Source: Advenella sp. S44 (GTDB lineage: Bacteria > Pseudomonadota > Gammaproteobacteria > Burkholderiales > Burkholderiaceae_B). Taken from it: DNA of 64,000 nucleotides. Every line of letters starts with the position of its first letter. Position 1 is the first letter of the stretch. Under the pieces are notes generated by a model. The model saw only the letters and a program-made list of their open reading frames with translations. It had not been told where the DNA came from and did no database searches. Below, in pieces: positions 1,837-20,437 of the stretch. The position numbers and the translations under genes are program-made. The DNA is taken from assembly GCF_002810445.1 (NCBI RefSeq), contig NZ_NEXS01000009.1:248001-312000 (forward strand), written 5' to 3'.

Positions 1837-2081
1837 GGTGTTCGGCGCTTCTCACCCTTATCATGCCTATCTGTTCGCGCGGCTGTATCAATGTGTGTTC
1901 CCCGGACACTTAAGTTTTTTCAGCCGAGACAGAGTGCATACCGATACCTCGATTGGTATCCTGAGGGCTGACCGACAGCTGTTTCATGCCAACATTTACG
2001 TCTTTGAATGTGTGCTTCCAATTCAACTTGATTGAATTCCTTTAAAAGTCTAACTACGTTTTGATTTGTTGCGCATACGGA

Positions 2082-2387: not shown

Positions 2388-2549
2388 TAAAATCTCCTGT
2401 TGAGGTTGTCGAGCAATCGCTCGATGTAGAAGGTCATAAGCAAAATGCCTTGAGCCCTCAAAATGGGTGAGTATGGACCTACTCGAAACACGCCAACTGT
2501 CTACGCCACTGTGAGATACCCATTGCCGCAGCGTCGGCGATATAAGCAG

Positions 2550-3218
2550 CTAGATACTACATCCGTCAATGCTGCAACTTGTCGCAATAGCCTCTGGACT
2601 ATCTACTGCTGTGTCGAGCAGGGCTTTTTCGAATACCGCTACATCACGCGCGCCCGATACATACGCATTGCCATTGAAGAGAAACAATGGGACGCCATTA
2701 GCAATGGAATTTGCACTGACCTCATCATTCGCGATCTCTGAAATGATGGTCGGATTGATGAAGTCTTTCGCGACATCTGTGGCCCCAACTTCTTTGGCGA
2801 GCGATACGAGCACGTCACGATCAAATATGTCGCATCCGTCCGTGGTCGCTGCCTTATAAATGCGCTCTGTAAGTGCAAGCTTGAGAGCTTGAGAATCGAT
2901 ACTCTTTACTAATGCGTGGGCCAGGGTGGTATCACCAAAACGCATGGTCTCAAAGTTGTAGATCAGTCCTTCCTGAACCCCGTTTTGGCCAACAATAGCC
3001 ATGAAACGCTCCACAGCTTCGCGACTAGGGAATTTTTGACTTAAGGCCGTTCTGTATTCCAACGGCTCTGCTCCCTTGGCGAGGCGATACGCCTTAAACG
3101 TGACGCTCACATCAACTTTTCCTAGAAGCGAAGCGATTGCCTTATCGAATCGGCGCTTGGCTATCCAGCACCATGGGCATACAAAATCAGACCAAACTTC
3201 AACGCTAACTTTTTTCAT
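2550..3218 (-). CDS. DsbA-family (FrnE-like) thiol oxidoreductase
   Basis: From ATG 3218 the product has 222 residues with a thioredoxin-fold active site Cys14-Pro-Trp-Cys17 in VEVWSDFVCPWCWIAKRRF. It has no signal peptide, so it is the cytoplasmic FrnE/HCCA-isomerase-like branch of the DsbA family rather than the periplasmic oxidase. The usual cis-Pro region is present near the C-terminus (NGVPLFLFNGNAYVSGA), and there is an extra Cys pair at the end (CSIDGC). I prefer ATG 3218, preceded by GGAAAAG, to an upstream in-frame start at 3278, which would lie inside the palindromic operator at 3271-3290. That operator just upstream points to control by the adjacent TetR protein. Confidence 0.8.
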   Translation of the reverse strand: MKKVSVEVWSDFVCPWCWIAKRRFDKAIASLLGKVDVSVTFKAYRLAKGAEPLEYRTALSQKFPSREAVERFMAIVGQNGVQEGLIYNFETMRFGDTTLAHALVKSIDSQALKLALTERIYKAATTDGCDIFDRDVLVSLAKEVGATDVAKDFINPTIISEIANDEVSANSIANGVPLFLFNGNAYVSGARDVAVFEKALLDTAVDSPEAIATSCSIDGCSI

Positions 3219-3270
3219 GGCACTTTTCCGGTGTAACACGTTAACGCTATTGCGTAAATTCTTCAAAAAT

Positions 3271-3290
3271 ACTACCAATTAGTTGGTAGT
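3271..3290. promoter_or_regulatory. Palindromic TetR-type operator
   Basis: ACTACCAATTAGTTGGTAGT is a perfect inverted repeat (arms ACTACCAA / TTGGTAGT, 4-nt centre) located 53 nt upstream of the DsbA-like start and 54 nt downstream of the end of the tetR gene. A degenerate copy lies upstream of tetR at 3991-4003. Inferred operator of the neighbouring TetR regulator. Confidence 0.7.
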
Positions 3291-3343
3291 TTTACAGCTC
3301 AAAAAAAACCAACTTTTCATAGGTCGCGACGCCTATCCCAACT

Positions 3344-3907
3344 TTAATCTTGACTTGCAATGAGCCGTACGACTGAACCGCTCAGTAGATCTTCTTCGCG
3401 CGTTGCCCAGTTAATAAAACAGGACCCTTCCAATAAGCTCAATATAGCGAACGCCTTTTTTCTGGCTCCGTCGCCGGCAGGAATTTCCCCTTGCTCGATA
3501 CCTCGTTGCAACACGCTACTTAGCCAATCTATCTGCATATCAAAAAAGACATGCGTCAGCCGTCTTAGGCCTTCGGGGAGAGCCGACATTTCTGCCGCTA
3601 GTGCACCACATAAAGGAAGCATTTCTACCTCTGCGCTAGCTCGAAATAGAGCAAAAAAAGCCTCTAGCCGCTCGATCGTAACTTCGGTTTTGGCTTCGAT
3701 ATTGGCTAACTCACCACGAATATTGCTAATGTACTCCTCTACAACCGCTACACCCAAATCCTCTTTCGTTGGGAAATGGTGATGAATACTCGCCTTCTTT
3801 ATCCCTACATCATCCACTAAATCAGCATAACTAAATGCGGCGTAGCCTTTTGTACGCATCAGACCTGCTGCAATCCGTAACAATGCTTCGCGAGTTCCGG
3901 CTGCCAT
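3344..3907 (-). CDS. TetR/AcrR-family transcriptional regulator
   Basis: From ATG 3907 the protein has 187 residues. The N-terminal helix-turn-helix domain (about 1-55) reads TKGYAAFSYADLVDDVGIKKASIHHHFPTKEDL, the classic TetR motif. The C-terminal ligand and dimer domain is not diagnostic of a ligand. I chose ATG 3907 because GGAG lies 6 nt upstream; an in-frame TTG at 3919 lacks this spacing. It is the first of three same-strand genes (TetR, DsbA-like, YdhR-like). Similar palindromes lie both in front of tetR and in front of the DsbA-like gene, consistent with autorepression plus repression of the module, relieved by an electrophile or quinone-like ligand (inference). Confidence 0.88.
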   Translation of the reverse strand: MAAGTREALLRIAAGLMRTKGYAAFSYADLVDDVGIKKASIHHHFPTKEDLGVAVVEEYISNIRGELANIEAKTEVTIERLEAFFALFRASAEVEMLPLCGALAAEMSALPEGLRRLTHVFFDMQIDWLSSVLQRGIEQGEIPAGDGARKKAFAILSLLEGSCFINWATREEDLLSGSVVRLIASQD

Positions 3908-4323
3908 GGTCCACTCCAATCAAAATATCACCTTGCCGTCAACTTTTAAAGACTTGCTCAAATTGCAACAAGGTATTAACAATAAAAACAACCAACTAGT
4001 CGGATGTATTCTATGGGGAATGCTGAGTGCTGTCAAGTACCGCCTCCTCCGTAGCACAATTCGGCATGTCAGGTAGGAACTCTACATAAGTGCACTCTCG
4101 CCCTGACCCGAAAGAACACGTAACCTCGCGTTGGGGGCATACTCCTTTTCCTTCAATGCTACGCGCGCGTATCGGGCTCCGGTTCAAGGGAGGACGAACC
4201 CAGACCCTGACGATGCCGGGAAAGGCGCGCCTCCAAGCCCGACGAGAGGTCGTTAAAGAAAAAGCCGATATGCTCTTGACGCAAGTGCGCGGCGAGCCCG
4301 AGTGAAAGGCACTTTTGGTGAAA
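3908..4323. other. Intergenic region upstream of tetR
   Basis: Holds the presumed tetR promoter and, at 3991-4003, ACCAACTAGTCGG, a degenerate copy of the operator core ACCAATTAGTTGG. The rest (4020-4320) contains only a short open frame without a recognisable family or ribosome site and may be decayed DNA. Confidence 0.4.
3991..4003. promoter_or_regulatory. Second, degenerate TetR operator-like site
   Basis: ACCAACTAGTCGG matches the core ACCAATTAGTTGG of the perfect palindrome at 3271-3290 in 11 of 13 positions, and lies 84 nt upstream of the tetR start. Likely an autoregulation site. Confidence 0.5.
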
Positions 4324-5232
4324 TTAGCGATTGCCCGCTCCTAGATAGCCAGCTTTCAATGTTTCAACAACAAGCTCTACCGCGCGGGATGACTTTCGAC
4401 GACTAGGATAATAGACGTGAAGTCCAGTGAACGTAGGAAACCAGTCTGTGAGGGCCCAGCTAAGTTGGCGCGTTTGAACATAAGGCTCTACCAAATCCTT
4501 GGGTACGTATGCAAGTCCAAATCCATCAAGTGCAGCATCGGTGATCTGATAGACATTGTCGAAAATCAGTTGCCCTTCGACACGCACTTGAAGTTGACGC
4601 TTGCCTTTCCTTAGCTCCCAGGGAAGCAGTGAATTTCTTGTCGGCAGTCGAAGGTTAATGCAGTTGTGCAGCATTAGTTCCTGGGGGTTCTGGGGCGCTG
4701 GCTTTGATGCAAAGTAGGCACGGGAGCCAACAATTGCCATTGTCAGATCAGGAGCAATTCGAGTAGCAATCATATCCTGCGCAATTTGATCACCTAGCCG
4801 AATTCCGATGTCATACCGGTCTGCCACGATATCGGTAAGTCCGTATGCATTTACGAGCTCGATTTTCAGTTCAGGGTACTCACGTAGCAGCGGCTGAAGA
4901 CGCGGCCATACATAGGTTTTCGCCGCATGATCTGTCGTTGTAATGCGCACGGTTCCGGCAGCTCGATAGTGCGACGATCGCAATAAGTCGATCTCTGCGT
5001 CTATCTCTGCCAGCCTCGGTGCAATGGTGGAAACGAGCTGCTCGCCAGCATCCGTCAATGAAACGCTTCTGGTTGTGCGCGTCAACAACGGCATTCCTAT
5101 ATGTTTTTCAAGTGCCTGCACTGTACGGCTGAGGGCTGACTGCGACACACCTATCTGGGCGGCAGCGCGCGTGAAATTACGCTCTCTCGCAACAGATAAA
5201 AATGCCAAGAGGTCGTTAAGATTTTCTTTCAT
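4324..5232 (-). CDS. LysR-family transcriptional regulator
   Basis: A 302-residue protein with the N-terminal winged HTH (NFTRAAAQIGVSQSALSRTVQALEKHIGMPLLTRTTRSVSLTDAG) and a periplasmic-binding-like effector domain from about residue 90. The pattern TTDHAAKTYVWPRLQPLLREYPELKIEL is typical of the PecT/DmlR-like subgroup. GGAG lies 6 nt before the ATG. It is divergent from the NAD-dependent epimerase at 5367, the usual arrangement for a LysR protein that controls its neighbour. The inducer is unknown. Confidence 0.9.
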   Translation of the reverse strand: MKENLNDLLAFLSVARERNFTRAAAQIGVSQSALSRTVQALEKHIGMPLLTRTTRSVSLTDAGEQLVSTIAPRLAEIDAEIDLLRSSHYRAAGTVRITTTDHAAKTYVWPRLQPLLREYPELKIELVNAYGLTDIVADRYDIGIRLGDQIAQDMIATRIAPDLTMAIVGSRAYFASKPAPQNPQELMLHNCINLRLPTRNSLLPWELRKGKRQLQVRVEGQLIFDNVYQITDAALDGFGLAYVPKDLVEPYVQTRQLSWALTDWFPTFTGLHVYYPSRRKSSRAVELVVETLKAGYLGAGNR

Positions 5233-5366
5233 TCATGCTCCACGGCATAAGACCATCCCTATTTTGCCATCTTATCGCATAAATTGGTGAATGCTATAGT
5301 GACGAAATTATTGGGACATTTTAGGTGCACATCGGCCTATCCCGAATTTTTTGCAGGAGAAAACTA

Positions 5367-6362
5367 ATGTCGCGAGTTGTTGTTATCGGTGGGAGCGGCC
5401 ATATCGGCAGCTACCTTATCCCGAAATTAATCGAAGTTGGCCATGAAGTAGTAAACGTTAGCCGTGGTCAAGCAAGTGCTTACTTGAAACATTCAGCTTG
5501 GAACCATGTGGAGGAAATGACATTAGACCGAAGCGCTGAGGAACAAGCGGGGCAATTTGGCCTGCGTATTGCGGAACTCCGCCCGGATATCGTCGTTGAC
5601 CTGATTTCGTTCGACCTTCCTAGCACCAGAATGCTTGTCGAAGCCCTTCGCGACAAGGTTGAACACTTCCTGCACTGCAGCACAATCTGGGTGTACGGCT
5701 ATAATGCAGCGGTGCCAGCAGAAGAAACGGATCCGCTTAATCCATTCGGCGAGTACGGCATCAACAAGGCGCAGATTGAAACCTGGCTGTTGCGAGAGGC
5801 CCGACGAAATGGGTTTCCTGCTACTGTATTCCGCCCCGGCCATATCGTCGGTCCGGGCTGGGCGCCAATCAATCCAAAAGGCCACTTCAACACAGAGATA
5901 TTTTCCCAGATAACTCGCAACGAAGAGATCGCACTTCCCAATCTCGGTTTAGAAACACTCCATCACGTTCACGCAAGCGATGTAGCACAAATTGTCATGC
6001 TAGCCATCGCCAATCGGGCAGTCTCCGTCGGTGAGGCATTCAATGCAGTCTCTTCCAAAGCATTGAACTTACGAGGGTACGCAGAAGCAATGTTTCGCTG
6101 GTTCGGATTCGAGCCGAAGATTCGTTTCCAACCGATCATGGAATGGCTGGAAGGCGAGTCGCTGAATGATGCCAAGTTGGCTATGGAGCATATCTCACGT
6201 AGTTCGTCGCTATCCATAGAAAAAGCACGTCGGTGCCTCGGCTATCAACCCCATTATACGAGTCTAGCTGCGATACAAGAATCGGTTTCAGCCCTGATCG
6301 TTGCAGGCACTGTTCCAGCTCCTAAGAGCTGGGAATCATATTCTAATTTTATAAGAATCTAA
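5367..6362 (+). CDS. NAD-dependent epimerase/dehydratase family protein
   Basis: From ATG 5367 (AGGAGA upstream) the protein has 331 residues: a Rossmann nucleotide-binding start VVVIGGSGHIGSYL (Gly-rich motif at residues 8-14) and an extended-SDR catalytic Tyr130-x-x-x-Lys134 (YGINK). Such proteins oxidise, reduce or epimerise sugar-nucleotide or small hydroxy/keto substrates. The substrate here cannot be assigned, and no sugar-nucleotide pathway genes are nearby. It stands alone on its strand and divergent from a LysR regulator, which suggests an inducible catabolic or detoxifying dehydrogenase. An upstream in-frame start at 5325 is less likely because it lacks a ribosome site. Confidence 0.8.
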   Translation: MSRVVVIGGSGHIGSYLIPKLIEVGHEVVNVSRGQASAYLKHSAWNHVEEMTLDRSAEEQAGQFGLRIAELRPDIVVDLISFDLPSTRMLVEALRDKVEHFLHCSTIWVYGYNAAVPAEETDPLNPFGEYGINKAQIETWLLREARRNGFPATVFRPGHIVGPGWAPINPKGHFNTEIFSQITRNEEIALPNLGLETLHHVHASDVAQIVMLAIANRAVSVGEAFNAVSSKALNLRGYAEAMFRWFGFEPKIRFQPIMEWLEGESLNDAKLAMEHISRSSSLSIEKARRCLGYQPHYTSLAAIQESVSALIVAGTVPAPKSWESYSNFIRI

Positions 6363-6730
6363 TAGCATACAAATTTAAGACAATTCAATACTAAGCCAGG
6401 ACGGTTTGAAAAATATTTATACTATACGAGTACTATTTAAATACTCCATTACAATTCAGCAAAATAAAAATATAGGTTCCTGTAATTGACTATAAGCAGG
6501 ACAGGCCATTTGCGTAAAACTCAAGTCGATCAGATTTCTTGTACAGAATAGTTAGTCACCTTTGCAAGCAAACTAATTCTGCACAATTAAATCATCAACG
6601 GATCCACAAAAATCTCGGTAAAACTTTGCTCAAGAAATGATTGTGGACTGTCTCAAAAGTGCTTTACTAATACATAAACGTAGCGCTAATCCGGCATTAC
6701 CAATACCCCGACGCTCCACCCATTCCATTG
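6363..6730. other. A+T-rich intergenic region
   Basis: Lies between the convergent epimerase and PEP carboxylase genes. No open frame with a family and no strong hairpin seen. A stretch GTGGACTGTCTCAAAAGTGC near 6643-6662 resembles an insertion-sequence end but has no partner. Confidence 0.35.
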
Positions 6731-9610
6731 TCATCCTGAATTTCTCAGCCCCGCAGCAATACCATTAATGGTTAAATGTATTGCACGCTGTGTACGCGGA
6801 TCGGGCTCTTCCCCATTTTCTTGAGCAGAACGGTGACGTTTCAATAATTCGATTTGAAGATAGTTCAGCGGATCAATGTAGGCAAAGCGCTCTTTCAAAG
6901 ACGCAAGCAAAACCGGATTATCAGCGAGCAGTTCACGCCTGGTCAAAAGATGCAGCATCTTCAATGTGCGCTCGTGTTCAATTCTAATCATGTCGAAAAT
7001 TTTTTCGCGTAAAAATTTCTTCGGCATCAGCTGCGAATATCGTTCAGCAATGCATAGGTCGGTTTTAGCTAACACCATTTCGACATTGGAAAGCCAGGTA
7101 CGAAATGCTGGCCATTGTGTTGCCATTTGACGTAAATGTGCCAATCGATCCCCTTGTGACTTCGGCGCATTTGGACAATTATTGTATATATAAGCTTCCA
7201 CAGCCGATCCGACACCGTACCAGCCAGTCAGCATTAAGCGACATTGCGCCCAAGAAAATCCCCAGGGAATGGCACGTAAGTCTTCTATTCTATGGCCTGT
7301 TTTTCTAGAGGTAGGACGCGATCCAATATTTAGTCCCGCGATCTCGTTTATAGGGGTGGCGGTGAAGAAGTACTCGGCAAATCCAGCTGTCTCATACACC
7401 AAGCTACGATAGGTTTTCTGAGCGGCATCAGACATGCAGCTCATCGCAGAACCGAAGTGCTTGAGATGCAAATCTTCCACGCTTGCAGTAAAGCTGGCAT
7501 CACTTAAACTTGCTTCTAGAGTCGCAGCCACCAGCATATCCAAATGCCAGCGGCCAATTTCAGCATCTTTGTATTTACTTTGAATAACCTCCCCTTGTTC
7601 TGTGAGCCGAAGCTGACCAGCTACCGTACCTGGAGGCTGAGACAGGATAGCATCAAAACTGGACCCACCGCCACGCCCTACCGAACCACCACGACCATGA
7701 AATAAGCGCAATGTAATATTACGTTTCGCAAAAACCTCGACCAACTTGCGCTCGGCCTGGTACAGAGACCAATTCGATGTCAAAAAGCCTCCATCCTTGT
7801 TACTATCTGAATAGCCCAACATAACCTCTTGCGTGTTGTTTTGAGCCAACCGCACACGAGCGCTAATTTCGGGCAAATCCAAGAATGCCGACATAATTTC
7901 GGGCCCACGCTCTAAATCTAGAATGGTTTCGAAGAGTGGGACTACCATCAACCCCTCTTCATGGTGAGGAGCTTGGTTGCCAGGTTTGATGAGCCCGGCT
8001 TCTTTTTGCAACACAAATACTTCTAACAAGTCTGACAATGTTTCAGTGTGAGAAACAATTGTTTGCTGAATTGAATTATTTCCATAGCTTGTGCGCGCTA
8101 AAGTAGCAACTCGTAAAATGGCCAACTCGCGAATTGTTTCGTCCGAGTACTTCAGCCAAGGAGATGTTAGAGGTCGCCCTTGCGCGAGCTCTTGCCGCAA
8201 TAGCTGGACGCGTTCACCCTCATTCAACTCGAAATAATTTAGCAGTTTCCCATCTTGTCGAACGTCAGCTACTGAGAACAATTCAGCTAATACACGTTCA
8301 TGTACATCAGAACTTTGACGCAAGTCAATAGTTGCCAAATGAAACCCAAATACGTCTACTGCTTGCTGTAAACTGCGCAAGCGCAAACGTACTATTGGGG
8401 CAGCACAGTGAGATTCCAAAGATGTGGCAACAATGGCCAGATCGTTAGCCAACTCTTTCGGAGTTTCGTATGGTCTAAATGAGTAGACTGTATCTGGAAA
8501 TAAATCTTGATCTAATAATTTTTTTTCTGTAGCACTCAATCGAGTATATATAACACGCACGGCACTACGATAAGGTTCATCGCGGGCGTGACTCAATTCA
8601 TCTTCACCAGCTTCCGCTAATTCAGCCAGAGACGGAGTGACTCTGATGAGCATGCTGGACATTGAAAGCTCGTTACTAAGACCACGTAGTTCTTTGAAAT
8701 AATAATCAAATATGACGGTAGCTTGATGCTGGAAAGCCTTTTCCAGGCTTTCTGTGTTGACGTTCGGATTACCGTCACGATCTCCAGCAATCCAACTTCC
8801 CATGCGCAAGAATGGTGGCAAAAGACGAGGAGTTGGCGAAAACGGTGTGACTGATTCGTCCGACAACAATTTACTGAGATCAAGATACATACTTGGTATC
8901 ACTGATAAAAAAGTACTACGATAGTACGATAGCGCGTTCTCAATTTCATCGTCGACTGTCATTTTCGTGAAACGCAAAATTCGAGTCTGCCACAACGATG
9001 CAACACGCCCTAATAATAAAAAGTCCAAATCAGCGCGCTCTTTATCACACATTGGAGCGTCACGTTGAATTAGCGAATCAGCAATCTCACGATGGAGATC
9101 CAAAGTACTTTTGCGTTGTACTTCAGTTGGATGTGCTGTCAGCACTGGCATGACATGCGACCCGGCTAAAAGCTCGCTAATTTTGGAAGGACAAGTTCCA
9201 TGTTTCTTCAGTACCTCGAAAGCAGCTCGCAAACTACCTCTCGCAGCGGTAGAACTCGACAAGGAATGTTGTCGACGAGCACGATTCTGTTCACGATCTT
9301 CGGCTATATTCGACAACTGTAGGAAATAGCTAAATGCCCTTGCGACAGAATTGGGATCATCGCCTTGTAAATTCTGAACGTAATTTCTCAACAATTCGCT
9401 GTCCACTGCTTTACCTTCCCGACGATACTTCAGAGCGGCGCGGCGCAGTGTTTCTATAGTATCGTAGACTCGTTTTCCTTCAGTGGCTTTTATGACTTGG
9501 CCCAGCATTCTACCTAAAAGGCGAATATCACTGCGAAGAGATGCTGAAGGCTCGGGCTGGAGACGGATTAGTTCCATTATTAAATGATTTCTCAGTTTGG
9601 CCGCAGGCAA
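6731..9610 (-). CDS. ppc: Phosphoenolpyruvate carboxylase
   Basis: Full-length enzyme (959 residues) that carboxylates PEP with bicarbonate to oxaloacetate, refilling the TCA cycle in the cytoplasm. Both signature motifs are present: [13 protein letters not shown] with the catalytic His near residue 160, and [24 protein letters not shown] also carries conserved active-site residues. The C-terminus ends ...[10 protein letters not shown], matching the conserved terminal glycine region. Two starts are possible: TTG 9610 (preceded by AGGGG) and ATG 9577 ([10 protein letters not shown]), the latter more in line with the usual family N-terminus but with a weak ribosome site. Codon use is clearly more A+T-rich than in the right half of the window, notable for a central-metabolism gene. 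Confidence 0.97.
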
Positions 9611-9892
9611 ATAACCCCTAACAAATTGGAAGTTTTAATCACGAAATAATGTTCATTGTGAATTTATTTCCAATTTGAACCCTCAAATGAGGGGTTTTCT
9701 TAAATTAGTAAGGGTTAAAAAAATCTGCCGGGAAAGGACAATGGGGGCGATCTGCATCGCATACCTCTTCATTTAGAAGGCAAGTGAAATTAGCATTTTC
9801 TATCATTTTTTAATCTATGAAATAAAGCTGGCATTAATGCCAGCCTTTACTGCGAATGCTACCTCACTCCACTTTGGCGGAGACTATGCGCT
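9611..9892. other. Intergenic region upstream of ppc
   Basis: Contains the ppc promoter region, a small hairpin at 9678-9696 (CCCTC-AAAT-GAGGG then GTTTTCTT, terminator-like on the plus strand without a plus-strand gene before it), and the terminator of the minus-strand dehydrogenase at 9824-9848. Confidence 0.4.
9824..9848 (-). terminator. Terminator of the HDH-family dehydrogenase gene
   Basis: GCTGGCAT-TA-ATGCCAGC is a perfect 8-bp stem at 9827-9844, 48 nt past the stop codon of the minus-strand gene. Read on the minus strand it is followed by TTTATTT. Confidence 0.7.
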
Positions 9893-11215
<1,323 letters not shown>

Positions 11216-11235
11216 CTAGGTCAATCGTTTTCACT

Positions 11236-11268
11236 AGCTCGAAATGTAAGCGCTTGCATTTTCGAGCT
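11236..11268. promoter_or_regulatory. LacI-family operator in the divergent promoter region
   Basis: Core ATGTAAGCGCTTGCAT (11244-11259) has the CG-centred symmetry of LacI/GalR operators. Flanks AGCTCG / CGAGCT extend the palindrome to 33 bp with one extra T in the right arm. It lies 38 nt upstream of the dehydrogenase start, ideal for repression. Confidence 0.8.
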
Positions 11269-11397
11269 AAAAAATAAGCCAGGATTATGATTCCGGCTAG
11301 TTGTTTCAATATTAAGCACTTATATGTATATATTAAGAGTTATTTTGATACGTTTGCACTAGGGTTAATACTTAGCAGCGGCATTTTTTTGTGTCAT

Positions 11398-11411
11398 ATG
11401 TAAGGGCTTGC
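11398..11411. promoter_or_regulatory. Second LacI-type half-operator near the lacI-like gene
   Basis: ATGTAAGGGCTTGC repeats the core ATGTAAGCGCTTGC of the operator at 11244 with one mismatch, 41 nt before the regulator's ATG. Suggests autoregulation or a loop between the two sites. Confidence 0.6.
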
Positions 11412-11451
11412 TCGTACAATTACTACTGCTAATTGGAGAACAACACTTCTC

Positions 11452-12528
11452 ATGAGTTCCGAACGACCAAGAATCGCCGATGTGGCGGCATTAGCCGGCG
11501 TATCCACTGCTACCGTCTCACGTGCACTTTCAAATCCTGAGAAAGTAAAAGCGCCAACACGGGAACGAATTATGCACGCTGTCACTCGTCTAGGTTATGT
11601 ACCAGATGGAGCAGCACGTGCATTAGCACTCGGTCACGCAAGAATGGTTGGGGCAGTAGTTCCTACACTGGATAACGCGATCTTCGCACGCGCGGTGCAG
11701 GGCATGCAAAGCACCCTGCAAGAATCGAATTATCAATTACTTATAGCAGCGCATGAATATAGCCTCACTGCAGAAACCCACGCGATTCGTGCTCTTCTAG
11801 AGCGATCTATTGATGCATTGGTACTCGTTGGCTGCGACCATTCGTTTGAAACATGGGAACTAATCAACACTACCCGTGTGCCAGTTCTTGTTACGTGGAC
11901 CAACGTCAAGACAACAGAAAGAATTCTCTCGATACCCGCTCCACATATAGGCTTCGACAATCGTCTTGTCGGTAAGCTCGCTGCTGAGCACTTACTTAAG
12001 CTTGGACATAAAAATTTAGGCATGGTTTCTGGCTTTACTCGACACAACGATCGAGCACGACATCGGGTCGAGGGATTTCGCACAGCCCTAGTCGACGCAG
12101 GAGTTCGGTTGCCAGATGACTACGTAATTGAGCAACCATTCGGGTTTGATGGAGGGCGCTCAGGCCTCAACCAATTAATGCAAATGCGTCCCCGGCCTAC
12201 TGCCATTTTTTGTGGTAACGATGTACTTGCGCTCGGCGCACTATTTGAAGCACAATCTCTGCAAATCGATGTGCCACAAGAATTATCAATTGTGGGTTGC
12301 GATAATCTCCCTATTTCTTCGCAAATTACACCTAAACTTTCCACTGTGCTGTTGCCAACCTATGATCTAGGACAACAAGTCGCACAAAGCTTACTCAATT
12401 GGTTTTCAACTAATCGTCCGCCGACAGACCGTTGCCTGCCCATTGAACTTGTAGTACGTGAGACGAGCCTTCCTCCTGTCAGTGAGTCTGCCAAATCTAG
12501 ATATAAAAATAATGCAAGAGACGAGTAA
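11452..12528 (+). CDS. LacI/GalR-family transcriptional regulator
   Basis: 358 residues. The N-terminal HTH plus hinge (residues about 6-60) reads RIADVAALAGVSTATVSRALSNPEKVKAPTRERI, followed by a sugar-binding-protein-like effector domain (AVVPTLDNAIFARAVQGM, GFDNRLVGKLAAEHLLKLGHKNLGMVSG, FCGNDVLALGA, VGCDNLPISSQITPKLSTV). It is divergent from the HpsN-like dehydrogenase and separated from it by two matching operator sites, so it very probably represses that gene and itself. The effector could be the dehydrogenase substrate; it is not visible in the sequence. GGAG lies about 12 nt before the ATG. Confidence 0.92.
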   Translation: MSSERPRIADVAALAGVSTATVSRALSNPEKVKAPTRERIMHAVTRLGYVPDGAARALALGHARMVGAVVPTLDNAIFARAVQGMQSTLQESNYQLLIAAHEYSLTAETHAIRALLERSIDALVLVGCDHSFETWELINTTRVPVLVTWTNVKTTERILSIPAPHIGFDNRLVGKLAAEHLLKLGHKNLGMVSGFTRHNDRARHRVEGFRTALVDAGVRLPDDYVIEQPFGFDGGRSGLNQLMQMRPRPTAIFCGNDVLALGALFEAQSLQIDVPQELSIVGCDNLPISSQITPKLSTVLLPTYDLGQQVAQSLLNWFSTNRPPTDRCLPIELVVRETSLPPVSESAKSRYKNNARDE

Positions 12529-12669
12529 ATCAAGGATTCACGCCTTTAGCATAAACTATTTCATAACAGCAAGAGTGATCCCTTCCTATTAATTTTTTTC
12601 CGTTGAAAATCTCTAATAGCCCGACTAATTACTTCGCATCGGGCTAATTAGCTGTCAGTACTCTAATTG

Positions 12670-13869
12670 TTAATTAGCACGTGCTCGGACCAGAAAGGTT
12701 CGCGCCGAAGGCCTTCTTAACGTTAGCACAGCCAAAATACCGAGCATTTCACAGACAATGAATAGTACTGACACAGGCCATGTCCCGTATTGAGGAACGA
12801 CGGCGGTTGCGAAAATTGGCACCAGTCCACCGAAAATTGTGGAGGCCTGGCTTCCAAATGAAATGCCGGTATACCGAAGCTGTCCTGGGAATGTTTCTGA
12901 AAAGAAAACAGGCAAGACAGCAAAAGTGCACCAAAGCGGAGCGGCCACCAAAAACATAGCAAACCACAAGTTTAGAACGTTGGTGGTGTCTGCTAACCAA
13001 AACACTGGAAACGCAACTAGAGCCATACATATACATCCAGCATATAGAATCGGTTCCGTTCCGATCCGGTCGGATAGTTTTCCGATAAAAATAATGATCG
13101 CGCTCATAATCGCATTAGTAACCACCATCCCCATAAGCACTTGCGTCTGATCCATATGCAAAATCGTTTTTGCGTAATAGGCTAAAAAAACCCATGCAAT
13201 ATAAAAGGGAACGGTAGAGGACGCTAAATAGACCAACGCCGTGCAAACAAGCTCCTTTGAGTGGTTTTTAAATAATTCAACAATGGGAAATTCAACAATT
13301 TCACCATGCTCTACTAATTCTTGAAAGACAGGTGTCTCTGCCGTACGAAATCTAATATAAAATCCGCAAAAAAATAACAAAATACTCACGAGGAAGGGAA
13401 TTCTCCAGCCCCACGCTGTGAAGGTCTCTTCACCTAAAAGAGAAGAAGAATAGTAAAACATTAAGGCACCTAGAGCTAAACCAGCCGGACAGCCGATTTG
13501 CACAATACTCCCGTAAAACCCTTTAGTGCGCTTTGGAGCATATTCCACGGCCATCAGTACAGCACCGCCCCACTCACCACCCATCGCCACTCCCTGAACA
13601 AAGCGGCAAAGAACCAAAAGTATAGGCGCCCAAATACCGACACTACTGTAAGTAGGTAGCAATCCGATGAGAAACGTTGAGCCGCCCATCATCGTCAAGG
13701 TAGTGATCAGCATTTTTTTTCGACCGATCCTATCTCCAAAATGACCAAATATTACGCTACCCAAAGGCCGCGCAAGAAACCCCACAGCGAGTGTCCCGAA
13801 GGACGCAAGCGTGCCAACCAAAGGGGAATAGGAAGGAAAAAACAGTTGACCAAAAACGAGAGCGGCAAC
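12670..13869 (-). pseudogene. MHS-family MFS transporter, 5' end removed by IS3 element
   Basis: The reading frame continues upstream of the first Met (13821) to the insertion-sequence end as VAALVFGQLFFPSYSPLVGT..., which is internal sequence in metabolite:H+ symporter (MHS) proteins. The normal start with the first membrane helix and WYDF motif, roughly 30-40 residues, is missing. The rest is intact: DRIGRKKML after helix 2, about 11 helices and a basic C-terminus. MHS carriers import organic acids and zwitterions such as citrate, ketoglutarate or betaine. It may be dead, or expressed from ATG 13821 as a shortened protein. It lies downstream of the cut alcohol/aldehyde dehydrogenase operon and probably once belonged to it or to the HpsN-like module. 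Confidence 0.85.
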
Positions 13870-13941
13870 TGTAACTATCCCCTAAAATAATACAGCTGAA
13901 GCGTAGAATTTTTCTTACACTAAGAAAAAAGGATTTTTACG

Positions 13942-14202
13942 ATGAGCAAACGGATGACAGAAAGCCAAATTGTGGCGATGTTGAAAGAAGCGGAAGCTGG
14001 GATACCGATTAAAGAGCTGTGCCGCAAGCATCATGTAGGTAACTCCACATTTTATAAATGGCGAGCCAAATATGGCGGCATGGAGCTCTCCGACGTAAAA
14101 CGACTCAAAGAGCTCGAGGAGGAGAATCGTCGCTTAAAGCAGATGTATGCTGATTTAAGTTTGAAGTCTCAGTTGCAGGAAGAAATCATAAAAAAGCTGT
14201 AG
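13942..14202 (+). CDS. IS3-family transposase OrfA
   Basis: 86 residues: an HTH domain (RMTESQIVAMLKEAEAGIPIKELCRKHHVGNSTFYKWRAKYGG) followed by a leucine-zipper-like coiled coil (VKRLKELEEENRRLKQMYADL). It binds the element ends and regulates transposition. Near its end an A AAA AAG heptamer (14190-14196) in the correct phase allows -1 ribosomal frameshifting into orfB to make the OrfAB transposase. The frame is intact. The pattern resembles the IS407/IS51 subgroups. Confidence 0.93.
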   Translation: MSKRMTESQIVAMLKEAEAGIPIKELCRKHHVGNSTFYKWRAKYGGMELSDVKRLKELEEENRRLKQMYADLSLKSQLQEEIIKKL

Positions 14203-15017
14203 TGCCTGTTGCGACGCGTAAAGACTGGGCAAAAGCGCTACAGGCACAGCATGACATCAGCGTTGTTTTAAGCTGCATGATTACGGGGATGAGTCGCACC
14301 GCGTTTTACTATCAGCCTAAACGTTGTGATGATAGCGAGGTAATTACAGTGCTAAACACGCTGGTTGAAAGACATCAACGTTGGGGGTTCCCCAAGTGTT
14401 TTAAGCGCATACGCGCTTTAGGTTACCGCTGGAATCATAAGCGTGTACAGCGTGTTTATAATGCATTGCGACTCAACATAAAGACAAAGCGCAAGCAACG
14501 CGTGCCTGCTCGCCAACCCGAACCACTCGTCGTACCTAAAAGTACGGGTCAGTGTTGGTCGATGGATTTTATGTCGGACCGCTTAGAAAATAACGTGCGA
14601 TTTCGTACATTTAATGTGATTGACGATTGCAATCGCGAGTTGCTAGGAATCGATATTGGCACGGGCTTGCCGTCTGCTCGTGTCACCCGTTACCTAGATG
14701 GGCTGGCCTCTTGGCACGGCTACCCACGTAGAGTTCGTGTCGATAATGGCCCCGAGTTCACCTCCGCGGAGTTCGTTCAGTGGGCACATCAACATGGCGT
14801 TTATATTGATTATACGCAGCCCGGTTGCCCCTATCAAAACGCCTATATTGAGCGCTTCAATCGTACGTACCGCCAAGAGGTATTAGATTTATATCTTTTT
14901 ACGTCGTTGAAGCAAGTTCAACACATCACGGAACACTGGACAACGATTTACAACACCGAAAGACCGCACGATTCACTCAATGACATGACACCCATTGACT
15001 ATAAATTAACATTATAA
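14202..15017 (+). CDS. IS3-family transposase OrfB (DDE integrase core)
   Basis: 271 residues ending at 15017. It has an N-terminal HTH_21-like region (RHQRWGFPKCFKRIRALGYRWNHKRVQRVYNAL) and an rve integrase core with the catalytic triad Asp122 (WSMDFMSD), Asp181 (VDNGPEF) and Glu217 (YIERFN). The 35-residue spacing between the last two is characteristic of the IS3 family. It overlaps the stop of orfA by one base and is normally made as the OrfAB fusion by frameshifting at 14190-14196. All catalytic residues are present, so the element may still be active. Confidence 0.93.
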   Translation: MPVATRKDWAKALQAQHDISVVLSCMITGMSRTAFYYQPKRCDDSEVITVLNTLVERHQRWGFPKCFKRIRALGYRWNHKRVQRVYNALRLNIKTKRKQRVPARQPEPLVVPKSTGQCWSMDFMSDRLENNVRFRTFNVIDDCNRELLGIDIGTGLPSARVTRYLDGLASWHGYPRRVRVDNGPEFTSAEFVQWAHQHGVYIDYTQPGCPYQNAYIERFNRTYRQEVLDLYLFTSLKQVQHITEHWTTIYNTERPHDSLNDMTPIDYKLTL

Positions 15018-15020
15018 ATT

Positions 15021-15311
15021 CTATGTGTGTGGTGTATTAAAGATGGGGTATTTACACAATTCGTCCACATGCTGTTCAATTAGTCGGCCAAGTTCTCGCA
15101 ACAGTTCTCCGCGTTTTGCAGGAAGATAGTCTGTCCAGGGTGAACTATCAAAGGCTATGCTCGCCGACTCCACCGCATCTTCCACCTGCGCGGCCGACGC
15201 GATTGGACATTTTGCCCAAATAGAAGCATCATATGGACTAATACAATCAAAATATCTACCGGAGTCTGGCGCATGCCAGATTCCGTTAATGAATAACTCG
15301 TAATTTTTCAT
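15021..15311 (-). pseudogene. Aldehyde dehydrogenase, N-terminal fragment cut by IS3 element
   Basis: About 86 residues match the start of NAD-dependent aldehyde dehydrogenases (YELFINGIW..., SPYDASIWAKCPIASAAQVEDAVESA, RGELLRELGRLIEQHVDEL). At 15056 the gene enters the insertion-sequence end, which supplies a short foreign tail and a stop at 15021. Some 400 residues, including the catalytic Cys and Glu, are missing. Start ATG 15311. It follows the zinc alcohol dehydrogenase on the same strand, so the pair would once have oxidised an alcohol to the acid in two steps. Confidence 0.88.
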
Positions 15312-15413
15312 TTGCACTACACCTTTTCATGAGTCGCTACTCTCGCGCTAGACGTAGAGTTCGACATTATATTGTCGAGCATCGGAGATACCCGCCGACC
15401 TTTTACTAGCACC

Positions 15414-16445
15414 TCACGAGAAAACCACAACAGATTTCCCTGTCTTCTGTTCGTCGAAAAGTCTATACGCTTCGTCTACCTGCTCCAATTTCCATGTGTG
15501 GGTAAAAAGCCGTTCGACCTCCACTTTATGTTTGGACACAAATTCCGCACACTCTACCTGCCACGATTTTGAGAAAGTCCAAGAGCCATAGACCCTCAGT
15601 TGTTTTCTGACTAGGTGCTCAGTAACATCGACGGGAACAGTCCCCCCCATTCCAACGAAAGCCACTTTTCCCCATACTGATGCACACCGTAACGCATCGA
15701 CTCCCCCTTTATCGGAACCTGAGGTATCTATTACATACGGCACGCCTCTGCCTTGAGTCAATTCCCGGATCGCCTGAAGCGCATCGTTTTTACTAGTATC
15801 AATAGTGATTGAGGCGCCAAGATTCTTAGCCTCATGCAGCCGACTTGCATTAACATCCAATGCAATGATTTCTCCTCCCATCGCTTTTGCAAACTGTGTG
15901 ACCGCAAGACCTACAGGCCCTTGACCGACCACCAGAATGGCTTCACGATTAGAATAATCTATTTTCTTTAATGCCCCCCAGGCTGTCCCAGAACCACATG
16001 AAATTGCAGCGCCAACCTCATACGAAAGATCATCTGGTAGCTCAATCAAAGTATCAGCGGGCACTTTTAAATACTTGGCGTGTCCACCATGCGCAGTTAA
16101 CCCATAGCTCGCCTCTTTGTCGCGGCATAATTGTGTCCAGCCGGTCATGCAATCAGTGCAACACCCACATCCCTTATAATGATGGACCATGACCCGAGCA
16201 CCTATTCGCGCGACATGGCTGTTAACAGCGCATCCCTTGGCGACTACTACACCGCATGGTTCATGGCCTGCGATAATTGGTCCTGGTGGCAATTTTCCCT
16301 TGAATGTCCCCCTAAATGACTTGAGATCACTTCCGCATATACCCGATGCCTTCATCTCTAAAACAACTTCGTTATCCTCTGGTGTCGGATCTACGAACTC
16401 CATCAACTGAACGGTGCGATCACCTGGAAATACAGCACCCAACAT
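15414..16445 (-). CDS. Zinc-dependent medium-chain alcohol dehydrogenase
   Basis: 343 residues: catalytic zinc ligands in ASGICGSDLKSF (Cys) and IIAGHEPCG (His-Glu), a structural zinc lobe with four Cys in GCGCCTDCMTGWTQLC, and the NAD(P)-binding VVGQGPVGLAVTQFAK. It oxidises an alcohol, possibly a polyol or amino alcohol as in threonine/sorbitol dehydrogenase relatives; the substrate is not determinable. It was followed by an aldehyde dehydrogenase now truncated by the IS3 element. It is divergent from a LysR gene, the likely regulator. With its partner lost, its product may no longer be processed locally. Confidence 0.9.
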   Translation of the reverse strand: MLGAVFPGDRTVQLMEFVDPTPEDNEVVLEMKASGICGSDLKSFRGTFKGKLPPGPIIAGHEPCGVVVAKGCAVNSHVARIGARVMVHHYKGCGCCTDCMTGWTQLCRDKEASYGLTAHGGHAKYLKVPADTLIELPDDLSYEVGAAISCGSGTAWGALKKIDYSNREAILVVGQGPVGLAVTQFAKAMGGEIIALDVNASRLHEAKNLGASITIDTSKNDALQAIRELTQGRGVPYVIDTSGSDKGGVDALRCASVWGKVAFVGMGGTVPVDVTEHLVRKQLRVYGSWTFSKSWQVECAEFVSKHKVEVERLFTHTWKLEQVDEAYRLFDEQKTGKSVVVFS

Positions 16446-16498
16446 AATTTAGCCCCTTGTGTCGAAAACTTAATAATATTGCTTTCTACTTTGGCCAG

Positions 16499-16535
16499 TA
16501 TGCTATTCTTTCTGGATCTATACTAAATTAGCATA
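16499..16535. promoter_or_regulatory. Inverted repeat in the ADH/LysR divergent promoter
   Basis: TATGCTA (16499-16505) and TAGCATA (16529-16535) form a perfect 7-bp inverted repeat with a 23-nt spacer between the divergent starts. It is a candidate binding site of the adjacent LysR protein. Weak evidence by itself. Confidence 0.35.
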
Positions 16536-16548
16536 GGTGTTTACTCTA

Positions 16549-17436
16549 ATGATTAAACTTAAACAACTCGAATTTTTCCGAGCCGTAATGCTTTATGGAT
16601 CCATAAACCGAGCATCCCACTATTTGTGTGTAAGCCAGCCCGTAGTGAGTAGAACCATTAGTCAATTCGAGAACAATATTGGCCTCCAATTATTTGAACG
16701 ACGGACTTCCCATCTAGTTCCAACGGAGAATGCTTATATATTGAACAGGTATTGTGAAGAAATTTTTGAATCAACAAACCGGTTGGATACCGTCATTAAA
16801 CTGCTTCAAGGCAAAAAAGTTGATCATTTGAAATTTGGTGCATCGCCTGCGCTTTCCAATACTTTCCTCCCAAAAATACTGGCAAAATACGATAGAAATA
16901 CCTGTATCCATTTTGAATCGTGTATGCTTAGAGATATAGCGCCCAATGTGGAGTCTGGGATGTTTGAGTTTGGGCTGACTATTTGGCCTATTGTTTCCGA
17001 CAGAATAATTTGCACGCCTATTGCAGAAAGCCGGTTCGTTTTTTTATGCCACAAAACAAATCCCCTGAGTCAGCTTAATAAAATTCGCTTTGATGATTTC
17101 GTCGATCAGGAGTTTATCTTTACCAATAGAAATAATCCAATCGGTAATTATATAGATCGAAAGGCCCAAGAAATGGGAGTCCAGTTTGACAAGTATATTG
17201 AAGTTGATAGATCAGAGATCGTCTGCGCTATCATCAATTCTGGACGTGGCGTTTCTATAATAAACTCTCACGGCTTTGATACTGATCAATGGCGAAATAC
17301 ACGTTCGATTGAACTGGATAATTCGATATATACAAACATTTATTTAATAACTCAGAAATTTGGCACCGCCAGCTCTCCTGCTGATCAGTTTATAAGTTTT
17401 ATAAGAAAGGAAATAGCTTCTTCTGAAATTATCTGA
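16549..17436 (+). CDS. LysR-family transcriptional regulator
   Basis: From ATG 16549 the protein has 295 residues; a GTG at 16537 is also in frame. The HTH region reads LKQLEFFRAVMLYGSINRASHYLCVSQPVVSRTISQFENNIGLQLFERRTSHLVPTENA, followed by an effector-binding domain (KFGASPALSNTFLPKILAKY). Codon use is strikingly A+T-rich, in line with acquired DNA. It is divergent from the zinc alcohol dehydrogenase and probably its activator. Confidence 0.9.
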   Translation: MIKLKQLEFFRAVMLYGSINRASHYLCVSQPVVSRTISQFENNIGLQLFERRTSHLVPTENAYILNRYCEEIFESTNRLDTVIKLLQGKKVDHLKFGASPALSNTFLPKILAKYDRNTCIHFESCMLRDIAPNVESGMFEFGLTIWPIVSDRIICTPIAESRFVFLCHKTNPLSQLNKIRFDDFVDQEFIFTNRNNPIGNYIDRKAQEMGVQFDKYIEVDRSEIVCAIINSGRGVSIINSHGFDTDQWRNTRSIELDNSIYTNIYLITQKFGTASSPADQFISFIRKEIASSEII

Positions 17437-17627
17437 CGAAGTACTTTTGAATTTTTCCCACGTGATTTCAACGTCTCCAATAGCGCATCAGTCACAATCT
17501 CATACAGACGGAAAACTTCGTCACAGGGTTCAGGCCCTAACCCTTTTATTCCGGCTCGAAGGCTTCAAAGCCAAGCCAATTGGCCTCTTTAACGGAGACC
17601 TTCCCAACGACGCTGTTCTAGCATATA

Positions 17628-17792
17628 TTATTCAGCAATAGTCGGAGCCCGCTGAATTATAAAAGAAACTCCAAAACCATGCCTAACCATGAGTTTTATC
17701 GCTTCACGAGAATCTACTTCCATAGCATCTCGCAAAGCTATTCCACGTTGGATCAAATGCTCGTCAATATCTCTAGATACCAAAATTTTCGA
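17628..17792 (-). pseudogene. Decayed LysR-family regulator, effector-domain fragment
   Basis: A 54-residue minus-strand frame contains DIDEHLIQRGIALRDAMEVDSREAIKLMVRHGFGVSFI, matching the late part of LysR effector domains (E-x-D-S-x-E-A-I-K-x-M-V-x-x-G-x-G-V). It lacks a start and its own HTH and is broken on both sides by stops and apparent frameshifts. It lies just left of the tRNA-Arg fragment, in the decayed edge of the putative island. Confidence 0.55.
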
Positions 17793-17845
17793 CTATAACA
17801 AGCATCAGAAATCTCAGCTAATAACGTCACATCGCTACGACCACG

Positions 17846-17884
17846 ACCAAGGGGTCGTGGGTTCAAATCCTGCCGGGCGCGCCA
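17846..17884 (+). tRNA. 3' fragment of tRNA-Arg(ACG), putative attachment site
   Basis: The sequence carries the variable loop, T arm (GTGGG-TTCAAAT-CCTGC) and acceptor 3' strand CGGGCGC-G-CCA of a tRNA whose 5' end would be GCGCCCG, as in bacterial tRNA-Arg(ACG). A GCTACGA at 17834-17840 resembles the anticodon arm, but then the match breaks and no D arm or 5' acceptor is present. A rho-independent terminator follows. A truncated tRNA 3' end is the classic duplicate left by site-specific integration, so this is a likely right-hand att site, with an intact tRNA expected to the left of the window. Confidence 0.8.
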
Positions 17885-17890
17885 CATTAC

Positions 17891-17925
17891 TTAGGGTCTC
17901 CATATGGAGGCCTTTTGTTTTTGTG
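17891..17925 (+). terminator. Terminator after the tRNA-Arg fragment
   Basis: GGTCTCC-ATAT-GGAGGCC hairpin followed by TTTTGTTTTTG, seven bases past the CCA end. It is a normal tRNA-gene terminator, retained from the original locus. Confidence 0.75.
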
Positions 17926-18457: not shown

Positions 18458-18907
18458 ATGCGTCGAGTCGATTACCGAGACTTGATCGGGGGGATATTGA
18501 TCACAACTGCCGGTGCCGGGGCTACGTACCATTCATTGACCGCTTTCTCTGTAGGCACGGCGGCCCGGATGGGACCAGGTTACTTCCCCGCCCTCGTCGG
18601 TGGCCTGTTAATGCTTTGCGGAATCCTGATAATGATTCCTGCACTGCTGCGTGAAGGACCCATGCCGACCTTCGAATGGAGGCCTTTGTTCTGGATCAGT
18701 CTTTCGATGCTTGCATTCGCGTTGCTGGTTCTTCCGTTCGGTCTGGTGCCCGCGATCATCGCGCAAACAATCCTGGCGGGCATCTCGGATTGCAAACTGT
18801 CTTGGCGAGGCTCGCTGCTCCTGGCCGGGGCTCTCTCTGTCGGAGCGACCCTGGTATTCAAATTTGGCCTGGGTGTCATCCTTCCGACGTTCGCCTGGCC
18901 TTGGTAG
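18458..18907 (+). CDS. tctB: Tripartite tricarboxylate transporter, small membrane subunit TctB
   Basis: 149 residues with four predicted membrane segments (about 12-30, 45-63, 80-110, 118-140) and the early MGPGYFPALVGGLLMLCGILI motif characteristic of TctB. It is the small integral-membrane partner of TctA in secondary, receptor-dependent uptake of organic acids. AAGGAG lies 8 nt before the ATG. tctA begins 12 nt after the stop. Unusually, no tctC receptor gene precedes it; one of the Bug receptors elsewhere in the genome would have to deliver substrate. Base composition is clearly more G+C-rich than on the left side of the tRNA fragment. Confidence 0.93.
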   Translation: MRRVDYRDLIGGILITTAGAGATYHSLTAFSVGTAARMGPGYFPALVGGLLMLCGILIMIPALLREGPMPTFEWRPLFWISLSMLAFALLVLPFGLVPAIIAQTILAGISDCKLSWRGSLLLAGALSVGATLVFKFGLGVILPTFAWPW

Positions 18908-18919
18908 GAGAAGATAAAG

Positions 18920-20437
18920 ATGGAAATACTTGACAACATCATGCTCGGTCTGACGACCGCGCTCGATTGGAACAATCTTCTCTGGTGCCTCGTCGGCGTA
19001 TCGCTCGGCACATTGATCGGCGTCATCCCCGGGGTTGGTACCCTGGCAACAATGTCGTTGCTGTTTCCGATCACCTACGTCCTGGAACCGACCGCCGCGC
19101 TGATCATGCTGGCCGGCATTTGGTATGGCAGCACCTACGGCGGATCGACAGCCTCGATTCTGTTGAATCTTCCCGGAACGCCGGCCAACGCTGTGACCTG
19201 TCTTGACGGGTTTCCGATGGCCAAACAGGGGCGGGCTGGCGTCGCGCTACTGATGACGACGGTTGCCTCCTTCTTCGGGGCCAGCGTCGGCATTCTTATG
19301 ATGATGCTGTTCTCTCCACTGCTGGCAGAGGTCGCGTTCAAATTCGGTCCCGCAGAGTACTTCTCAATGATGGTGCTGGGCCTGGTGTCGGCCTCTGTCG
19401 TGTCATCTGGTTCGGCTCTCAAAGGCATCACGATGGTCGTGGGCGGTGTGCTGCTGGGCATGGTCGGCACCGACGTCAATTCCGGCGTGGCGCGCTTCGA
19501 TCTGGGCTTCCCCGAACTGCAGGACGGGGTGCAGATCGTCGCACTTGCCATGGGCCTGTTTGGCGTCACCGAGATCATCGCCAGTATCAATCACGTGAAG
19601 GCGGCCGACCGCAAGATCGACGTATCCATGAAGGCCATGCTGCCGACTCGTGATGAGATGAAGCGCTCCTGGGGACCAATGGCCCGTGGATCAGGCCTGG
19701 GGTCGTTCTTCGGCGTGTTGCCTGGCGTAGGTCCCACCGTCGCCGCCTTCATGGCCTATGCGCTGGAGAAACGGACCTCGAAGACTCCCGAGCGCTTCGG
19801 CAAAGGCGCGATCGAAGGCCTGATGGCCCCGGAGGCAGCCAACAACGCATCAGACCAGGCGTCCTTTATTCCGACGATGACACTTGGCATTCCCGGCAGT
19901 GTAACGATGGCTTTGATCATTGGTGCGCTGATGATTCACGGCATCCAGCCCGGACCGCAAATGCTGACCGAGCAGCCCGACATGTTCTGGGGTCTGGTAA
20001 TGAGTTTCTGGATCGGCAATATCGTCCTGGTGATCCTGAACGTGCCGATGATCGGTTTGTGGATCCGTGTGTTAACGATCCCTTATCACATCCTCTACCC
20101 GGCGATCGTGATGTTCATCTGCATCGGCACCTATTCGGTCAACAACAACGTCTTCGATGTCTATGCTGTTCTGGTGTTCGGCATTGGCGGCTACGTACTG
20201 CGCGTGCTCGACTTCCAGCCTGCGCCGCTGCTGCTTGGCTACGTATTGGGCCCGATGCTGGAAGAAAACTTCCGGCGCGCCATGCTACTCTCGCGCGGTA
20301 GTATGCAGACGTTCATTGAGCGTCCGATCAGTATGTGGGTGCTGCTCCTGACCGCAGCCTTGCTGGTTTGGGGCTTCTGGAGTAGCCTGCGCCACCGGTC
20401 AGCCGTGCCCCAGGCCGACTCGTCTGAGTCGACGTGA
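18920..20437 (+). CDS. tctA: Tripartite tricarboxylate transporter, large membrane subunit TctA
   Basis: 505 residues, the expected length, with 11-12 membrane segments. Conserved features include the repeated GxxPGxG motif (GTLIGVIPGVGTLATMSLLFP near residues 32-52 and GSFFGVLPGVGPTVAAFMAYALEKR near 255-280), the GSTASILLNLPGTPANAVTCLDGFPMAKQGRAG region and the EAANNASDQASFIPTMTLGIPGSVTMAL region. It forms the ion-coupled channel with TctB. It ends with a strong terminator, so tctBA is a two-gene operon. A convergent TctDE-like two-component system downstream is the probable regulator. Confidence 0.97.
   Translation: MEILDNIMLGLTTALDWNNLLWCLVGVSLGTLIGVIPGVGTLATMSLLFPITYVLEPTAALIMLAGIWYGSTYGGSTASILLNLPGTPANAVTCLDGFPMAKQGRAGVALLMTTVASFFGASVGILMMMLFSPLLAEVAFKFGPAEYFSMMVLGLVSASVVSSGSALKGITMVVGGVLLGMVGTDVNSGVARFDLGFPELQDGVQIVALAMGLFGVTEIIASINHVKAADRKIDVSMKAMLPTRDEMKRSWGPMARGSGLGSFFGVLPGVGPTVAAFMAYALEKRTSKTPERFGKGAIEGLMAPEAANNASDQASFIPTMTLGIPGSVTMALIIGALMIHGIQPGPQMLTEQPDMFWGLVMSFWIGNIVLVILNVPMIGLWIRVLTIPYHILYPAIVMFICIGTYSVNNNVFDVYAVLVFGIGGYVLRVLDFQPAPLLLGYVLGPMLEENFRRAMLLSRGSMQTFIERPISMWVLLLTAALLVWGFWSSLRHRSAVPQADSSEST

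Follow-up and report, generated by a model that had tools for sequence, protein, structure and literature searches.

The tRNA-Arg(ACG) fragment at positions 17834-17925 of the window, by which we mean the whole 64-kb stretch of DNA that was analysed (C11:248001-312000 in a draft assembly of 17 contigs and 4.3 Mb), is very probably the attR junction of a 36.5-kb element (C11:229365-265884) that sits at a tRNA-Arg(ACG) gene, has no recognised transfer genes or right-arm sites, and is probably unable to excise itself. The features on which this reading is built are collected in Table 1.

The displaced tRNA end and its repeat

The right end holds the 3' half of a tRNA-Arg(ACG), running from the anticodon loop to the CCA and followed by the terminator, in the layout GCTACGA-CCACG-ACCAAGG...GCGCGCCA: The anticodon loop GCTACGA (17834-17840) is succeeded by the inserted CCACG, and 17846-17884 comprises the 3' strand of the anticodon stem, the variable region, the T arm, the 3' strand of the acceptor stem, and the CCA, behind which a hairpin and a T-run follow. 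The sequence-only reading had described this interval as a tRNA-Arg 3' end with its normal terminator, which the sequence confirms. Its statement that the 5' half is missing holds with regard to the loss itself, but the start at 17834 already includes the anticodon loop, so that the missing part is everything 5' of that loop. ARAGORN called no tRNA gene anywhere in the window, Rfam at gathering scores yielded no match in it, and no ORF of at least 90 aa overlaps 17834-17925, which places the fragment outside coding genes.

A search of the whole 4.3-Mb genome with a 31-nt pattern and up to three mismatches gave exactly two matches, both on the plus strand (C11:229334 and C11:265854) and hence in direct orientation at a spacing of 36,520 bp. 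The left match lies within an intact tRNA-Arg(ACG) gene at C11:229287-229364. Over the 39 nt ending at the CCA both copies are identical without a gap, and the ungapped match continues into the terminator to a total of 78 nt with three mismatches (96% identity); at a probability of ~2e-19, there is no reasonable chance that the 39-nt exact repeat arose at random. Both things that the sequence-only reading had proposed to look for are consequently in place: a complete tRNA-Arg(ACG) gene that lies in direct orientation and shares the 39-nt 3' end, and a tyrosine-recombinase gene, which directly follows the intact tRNA. The sequence-only reading had also cited composition changes on the two sides; GC content is 46.3% between the two copies versus 54.8% in the 14.3 kb to the left and 54.5% in the 46 kb to the right. 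The tRNA gene and its downstream 3' fragment thus share replicon and orientation, the tyrosine-recombinase gene lies inside the interval, and the 36.5 kb between them fall within the 2-200 kb range of tDNA islands.

Table 1. Positions of the island features, the right-end junction, and the adjoining flank in the window.
Feature	Position	Strand	Remark
Right-hand half of the island	1..17845	.	left half outside the window, C11:229365-248000
Response regulator, cargo	508..1188	-	paired histidine kinase C11:247193-248515 overlaps the left edge of the window
Second putative oriT-like (nic-like) sequence, CCTGTCCTGCTTATAGT	6485..6505	-	
Phosphoenolpyruvate carboxylase, cargo	6731..9610	-	
Histidinol dehydrogenase family, cargo	9893..11206	-	
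Two-ORF transposase (HTH_Tnp_1 + rve)	13942..15017	+	
LysR regulator, cargo	16537..17436	+	last open gene before the right end
Displaced tRNA-Arg(ACG) 3' half, anticodon loop to CCA (attR core)	17834..17884	+	based on the repeat and the right ends of relatives
5-nt insertion CCACG in the anticodon-loop segment	17841..17845	+	neither in the intact tRNA nor in five right ends from four relatives
Perfect 8-bp hairpin CCACGACC-AAGG-GGTCGTGG	17841..17860	+	created by the insertion
78-nt direct repeat (96%)	17846..17923	+	repeats C11:229326-229403, 3' part of the intact tRNA and terminator
tRNA transcription terminator, displaced with the tRNA end	17885..17923	+	resembles the G003/G004 version more than the left copy
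TctB and TctA genes, right flank	18458..20437	+	adjoin the tRNA in G003, the fragment in G005

Integrase, relatives and crossover point

The gene nearest to the intact tRNA points toward it and has its stop 104 bp beyond it. It is open and encodes a 374-aa tyrosine recombinase (PF00589, E 4.8e-6), whose 26.9 bits lie just below the Pfam cut-off of 27.1 bits; a 75-aa DUF4224 protein is encoded directly upstream. The residues R226, K249, H328, R331, H350, and Y360, which we take to be the catalytic residues of a tyrosine recombinase, are invariant in all six integrase homologues. The homologous integrases that we compared share 98, 85, 72, 66, and 61% identity over the alignment, and the nearest named records with this integrase belong to Advenella. 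Homologues adjoin tRNA-Arg(ACG) in G005 (taken as Advenella kashmirensis W13003; 98% identical), G008 (taken as Advenella sp. FME57; 85%), G216, and Polynucleobacter (G444). No tRNA was found in the 21-kb stretch examined around a Mycetohabitans homologue (57%) or in the 4-kb stretch examined around the homologue of G045 (40%). Members of this integrase family are thus located at tRNA-Arg(ACG) in Advenella, another genus of its bacterial family, and Polynucleobacter. Among titles and abstract beginnings of the papers listed (12 of 43 for TrfA/tRNA-Arg ICEs), literature searches on Advenella islands or ICEs, anticodon-loop integrases, TrfA/tRNA-Arg ICEs, and PtuA/PtuB or Septu with type I systems returned no description of this island or integrase family.

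Ten genomes of the genus were searched, our own (G000) included, and the displaced fragment occurs in three of them (G000, G005, G008). A second copy of the tRNA end is thus present and the fragment is not conserved in all relatives, which supports integration at the 3' end of the tRNA gene. Conservation of the left-hand genes in all relatives, named by the sequence-only reading as the finding that would speak against an island, was not observed: The 1.3 kb of island directly to the left of the fragment had no match in the nine other genus genomes, with two first-look candidates scored per genome, and gave partial matches of 67-77% in two other genomes among 268 of the family. For the rest of the island, the comparison covered the surroundings of the tRNA in six of these nine genomes.

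Sequence of our left flank adjoins the tRNA in five other genomes (G003, G004, G005, G007, G008), and in two of the nine congeners, G003 and G004, the flanks stand together without the island. In G003, our right-flank sequence is taken up again ~350 bp past the tRNA, from C11:266336 onward (~120 bp ahead of tctB), and a broken integrase end (60% identity, one stop) lies in between; in G004, the left flank continues across the tRNA, and similarity sets in again ~290 bp further on, at C11:271543, with TctBA missing. Arm-like repeats follow the tRNA in both genomes, so that these sites may have been occupied before: Both are unoccupied today, neither is pristine, and both bear traces of earlier elements. 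TctB/TctA are absent from the corresponding place in G008 as well as in G004. The surroundings of the tRNA in G007 contain integrase fragments and an ISL3 element; another copy of the terminator in this genome (C1:1470718) was considered as an attR and dismissed, being a terminator alone without a tRNA part. In G009, the tRNA match is divided over two contigs and no tRNA was called. G001, G002, and G006 possess two intact tRNA-Arg(ACG) genes in tandem. This arrangement is found in small genomes (3.0-3.3 Mb), and the larger genomes have a single gene, which is the integration site. The integrase search found nothing in G001 and G002; in G006, its single match was weak (E 4.4e-4) and lay on a contig other than that of the tRNA.

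Just to the right of the island, at window 18047-18200, lies a remnant of an ISL3-type insertion-sequence end, of which copies with 73-76% similarity occur in seven of the nine stretches compared (from G000, G003, G004, G007, and G008). Two of the relatives' copies lie near integrase genes, and the segment was therefore considered as a further attachment site; it was rejected as such since it matches the ISL3-type end.

The two copies of the tRNA end differ in what follows the CCA. The right copy reads CATTACTTAGGGTCTCCATATGG, as does G003 and, except for one base, G004; the left copy reads TTTTACTTAGGGTCTCCAGATGG. As the right copy has the terminator version of G003 and G004, it is probably the original 3' end of the chromosome, and the left copy would have arrived with the element. 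If so, the point of exchange lies within the tRNA, left of the terminator difference. G008 likewise has two differing copies, the right one again with CATT; in G005, both have TTTT, which makes the terminator uninformative there. We further compared five right ends from four relatives (G005, G008, G216, and two in G444), for which both ends lie on one contig in G216 only (51.5 kb apart) and on different draft contigs in G005, G008, and G444. In all five, the shared sequence sets in at GGCTACGAA or a few bases ahead of it. The acceptor stems vary among these hosts, whereas the anticodon and T arms are nearly constant, which makes strand exchange in the anticodon loop likely.

Damage at the right end, transfer functions and cargo

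The insertion in the anticodon-loop segment would have arisen either by a template switch or, once one A had been lost, by a 6-bp tandem duplication. The hairpin that it creates means little by itself, because 15 perfect 8-bp hairpins of this kind exist in the 64-kb window. At the left end, past the terminator, two direct repeats like TTTGCACTATTGAAA are located 19 nt apart, an arrangement found in all five loci with this integrase at tRNA-Arg, the second repeat of G008 being weak (four mismatches). On the inner side of the right end, ACTGTACTATT stands exactly 139 nt ahead of the core in three of the relatives' five ends, with ATAGTACA 67 nt on; in a fourth (G444, C26), each half of the pair deviates by one mismatch, and in the fifth (G444, C9), a comparable pair with a different sequence was recognised by eye. 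We regard the left repeats and the right-end pairs as putative arm sites of the integrase, with motifs that were drawn from the compared sequences themselves and hence serve as a description, not as a blind test. The ACTGTACTATT/ATAGTACA pair was found neither at our own right end nor in the whole island at two and one mismatches (0.18 pairs expected in shuffled island sequence). As far as its sequence goes, the element therefore looks defective, with its right-end damage known from one draft assembly. The sequence-only reading had not noticed this damage, which becomes visible against other elements of the family.

The transfer functions were compared with those of the sister elements. The G005 contig with the displaced fragment encodes a relaxase, a coupling protein, VirB/Trb secretion proteins, TrbM, TrfA, and ArdC; integrase and conjugation genes are on different draft contigs in G005 as well as in G008. 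When 26 ORFs chosen from both parts of the G005 element were compared with the island, two matched, namely the integrase and an IS66 transposase, and 24, including the relaxase, coupling, and secretion proteins, had no match in it. In the control, G008, all seven right-end and all twelve transfer-region ORFs found a match; of the seven chosen left-end ORFs, the integrase alone did so in the stretches compared. The 51.5-kb element of G216 is matched by the integrase alone, so that conjugation genes are not universal in the element family. TrfA has no match in our whole genome and matches in three of the ten genus genomes, in G003 on a contig other than that of the tRNA. Judged by the 26 ORFs compared, the set of relaxase, coupling protein, and type IV secretion genes that defines an ICE was not found in the island.

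The island contains two oriT-like sequences: CCTATCCTGCATATAGT at C11:240285-240305, preceded by an inverted repeat (by eye), and a changed version at window 6485. CCTATCCTGCATATAGT-like sequences also occur in the G005 element, the G007 remnant, and two Advenella plasmids (there intergenic), of which one is typed as MOBP conjugative and one as non-mobilizable; they were not found in the stretches of G008 and G216 examined. The site at C11:240285 is nearly identical to that of the A. mimigardefordensis DPN7 plasmid 24p (23.6 kb, typed non-mobilizable). Shuffled island sequence yields 0.02 such matches at the looser setting. CCTATCCTGCATATAGT resembles the nick site of IncP plasmids, which suggests the oriT assignment; both sequences are accordingly putative transfer origins, located in one island where no relaxase was found.

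Besides the genes in Table 1, the ORFs scanned in the island comprise an HTH protein (under the cut-off), HsdM, HsdS, PtuA, and PtuB, a siderophore-linked iron uptake system with a TonB receptor, a two-component system, regulators, an epimerase, an MFS transporter, an alcohol dehydrogenase, and IS parts. The genes hsdM-hsdS-ptuA-ptuB are tightly packed on the minus strand to the left of the window (C11:233072-238791) and place a type I methyltransferase with its specificity subunit beside a Septu ATPase with its nuclease. The scanned ORFs included no hsdR; given the IS66 remnant upstream of hsdM, one may once have been present and then lost. With up to three candidates scored per genome, a PtuA homologue was found at E <= 1e-60 in our own genome only among 399 genomes of the order. 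We take the two-ORF transposase to be IS3-like; it is adjoined by the start fragment of an aldehyde dehydrogenase (window 15021-15317). After the LysR regulator, a broken LysR-like stretch on the minus strand can be recognised by eye in translation.

Origin of the junction and comparison with known systems

According to our preferred explanation, the element was inserted at tRNA-Arg(ACG) by its own tyrosine recombinase, most likely through strand exchange in the anticodon loop as suggested by the five right ends of four relatives. The element would have carried in a tRNA 3' half and terminator of its own, which keeps the left tRNA whole, and the original chromosomal 3' half, as the comparison with relatives indicates, would have been displaced to the right end. 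Its integrase and left end assign the element to a family that in sister Advenella strains is conjugative by gene content; this copy would either have lost the transfer genes and the arm sites of the right end or never have possessed them. With neither found here and a 5-nt insertion in the core, the element is probably unable to excise by itself. We regard as unlikely a bolder version of this history, in which a formerly conjugative element was locked by the small mutation at the attR crossover, possibly a template switch that perfected the hairpin, together with the loss of the right arm, and in which the oriT or oriTs let the relaxase of a relative move the island or neighbouring chromosome.

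The most serious competitor is a composite island, in which an older, decayed element left the right fragment and a second element, whose right end was lost in the fusion, contributed the integrase and left end. It would explain why no family arm sites are present at the right end, why two different oriT-like sequences share one island, and why a broken LysR-like stretch lies at its right end, and it is in keeping with the integrase scars at this tRNA in G003 and G007 and with the probable tandem pair at the same tRNA in Polynucleobacter. There, in G444, two elements with arm repeats GTACTACTGAA and GGACAATAG probably form a tandem array at tRNA-Arg(ACG): The attR on C26 is directly followed by arm repeats of the second type, which recur at another right end (C9), and no integrase of the second element was found in the 1.9 kb examined. 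Together with the two oriT-like sites, this arrangement makes accretion of elements at the tRNA plausible. However, no third copy of the tRNA 3' end was found in the genome, and a deletion of the inner junction must be assumed, so that on balance we consider the composite island possible, yet somewhat doubtful. An intact and mobile element with a crossover in the T loop and a diverged right-arm sequence appears improbable to us. In its favour stand the open integrase gene, whose product shares 98% identity with its A. kashmirensis W13003 counterpart, and the 39-nt identity, which would permit an exchange in the T loop; yet all five right ends of the four relatives have kept the anticodon loop, and the left-arm repeats are kept here while the right-arm pair was not found. 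That the tested relaxase and secretion proteins of the sister element are unmatched weighs against it as well, although movement by the machinery of another element requires none of them. Finally, G001, G002, and G006 show that tRNA-Arg(ACG) genes can occur in tandem, and the fragment might by analogy be a decayed tandem duplicate, or a chance similarity, instead of an integration scar. We rejected tandem duplication as its origin and consider either version scarcely conceivable in view of the adjacent integrase, the GC step, the flanks that stand together in relatives, and terminator versions that fit integration.

With a single element integrated at tRNA-Arg(ACG) and damaged at its right end as the preferred reading, both ends of an Advenella island are now fixed, and the related attachment sites, be they complete, damaged, scarred, or tandem, make crossover point and arm sites readable. 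The closest counterparts are the elements of G005 and G008, which agree with the island in the tRNA used, in the integrase, and in the left-arm repeats (the second one of G008 being the weak one mentioned above), and differ from it in possessing a relaxase, a coupling protein, type IV secretion proteins, TrfA, and right-arm sites near the fragment. They suggest a route by which a conjugative element family may turn into fixed cargo. A more distant counterpart comes from Castellaniella, which we take to belong to the same bacterial family as Advenella. Its island likewise neighbours an arginine tRNA and, unlike ours, carries copper resistance as cargo; the passage describing it gives no anticodon or integrase details (PMC11046850).

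An island targeted to a tRNA gene with a displaced 3' fragment is a well-known kind of feature. New here are the insertion at the presumed crossover, the lack of a right-arm pair, and the lack of matches to the sister conjugation proteins tested. Islander counts 3,919 islands, among them 3,760 with a 3' fragment and 2,083 centred on the anticodon, and lists 148 islands 'with damage' (PMC4383910). As in the site A islands described there, a tRNA gene, a downstream 3' fragment in direct orientation marking the end, and an internal tyrosine integrase occur together in the Advenella island, whose fragment is set apart from theirs by the 5-nt insertion at the presumed crossover (PMC4383910).
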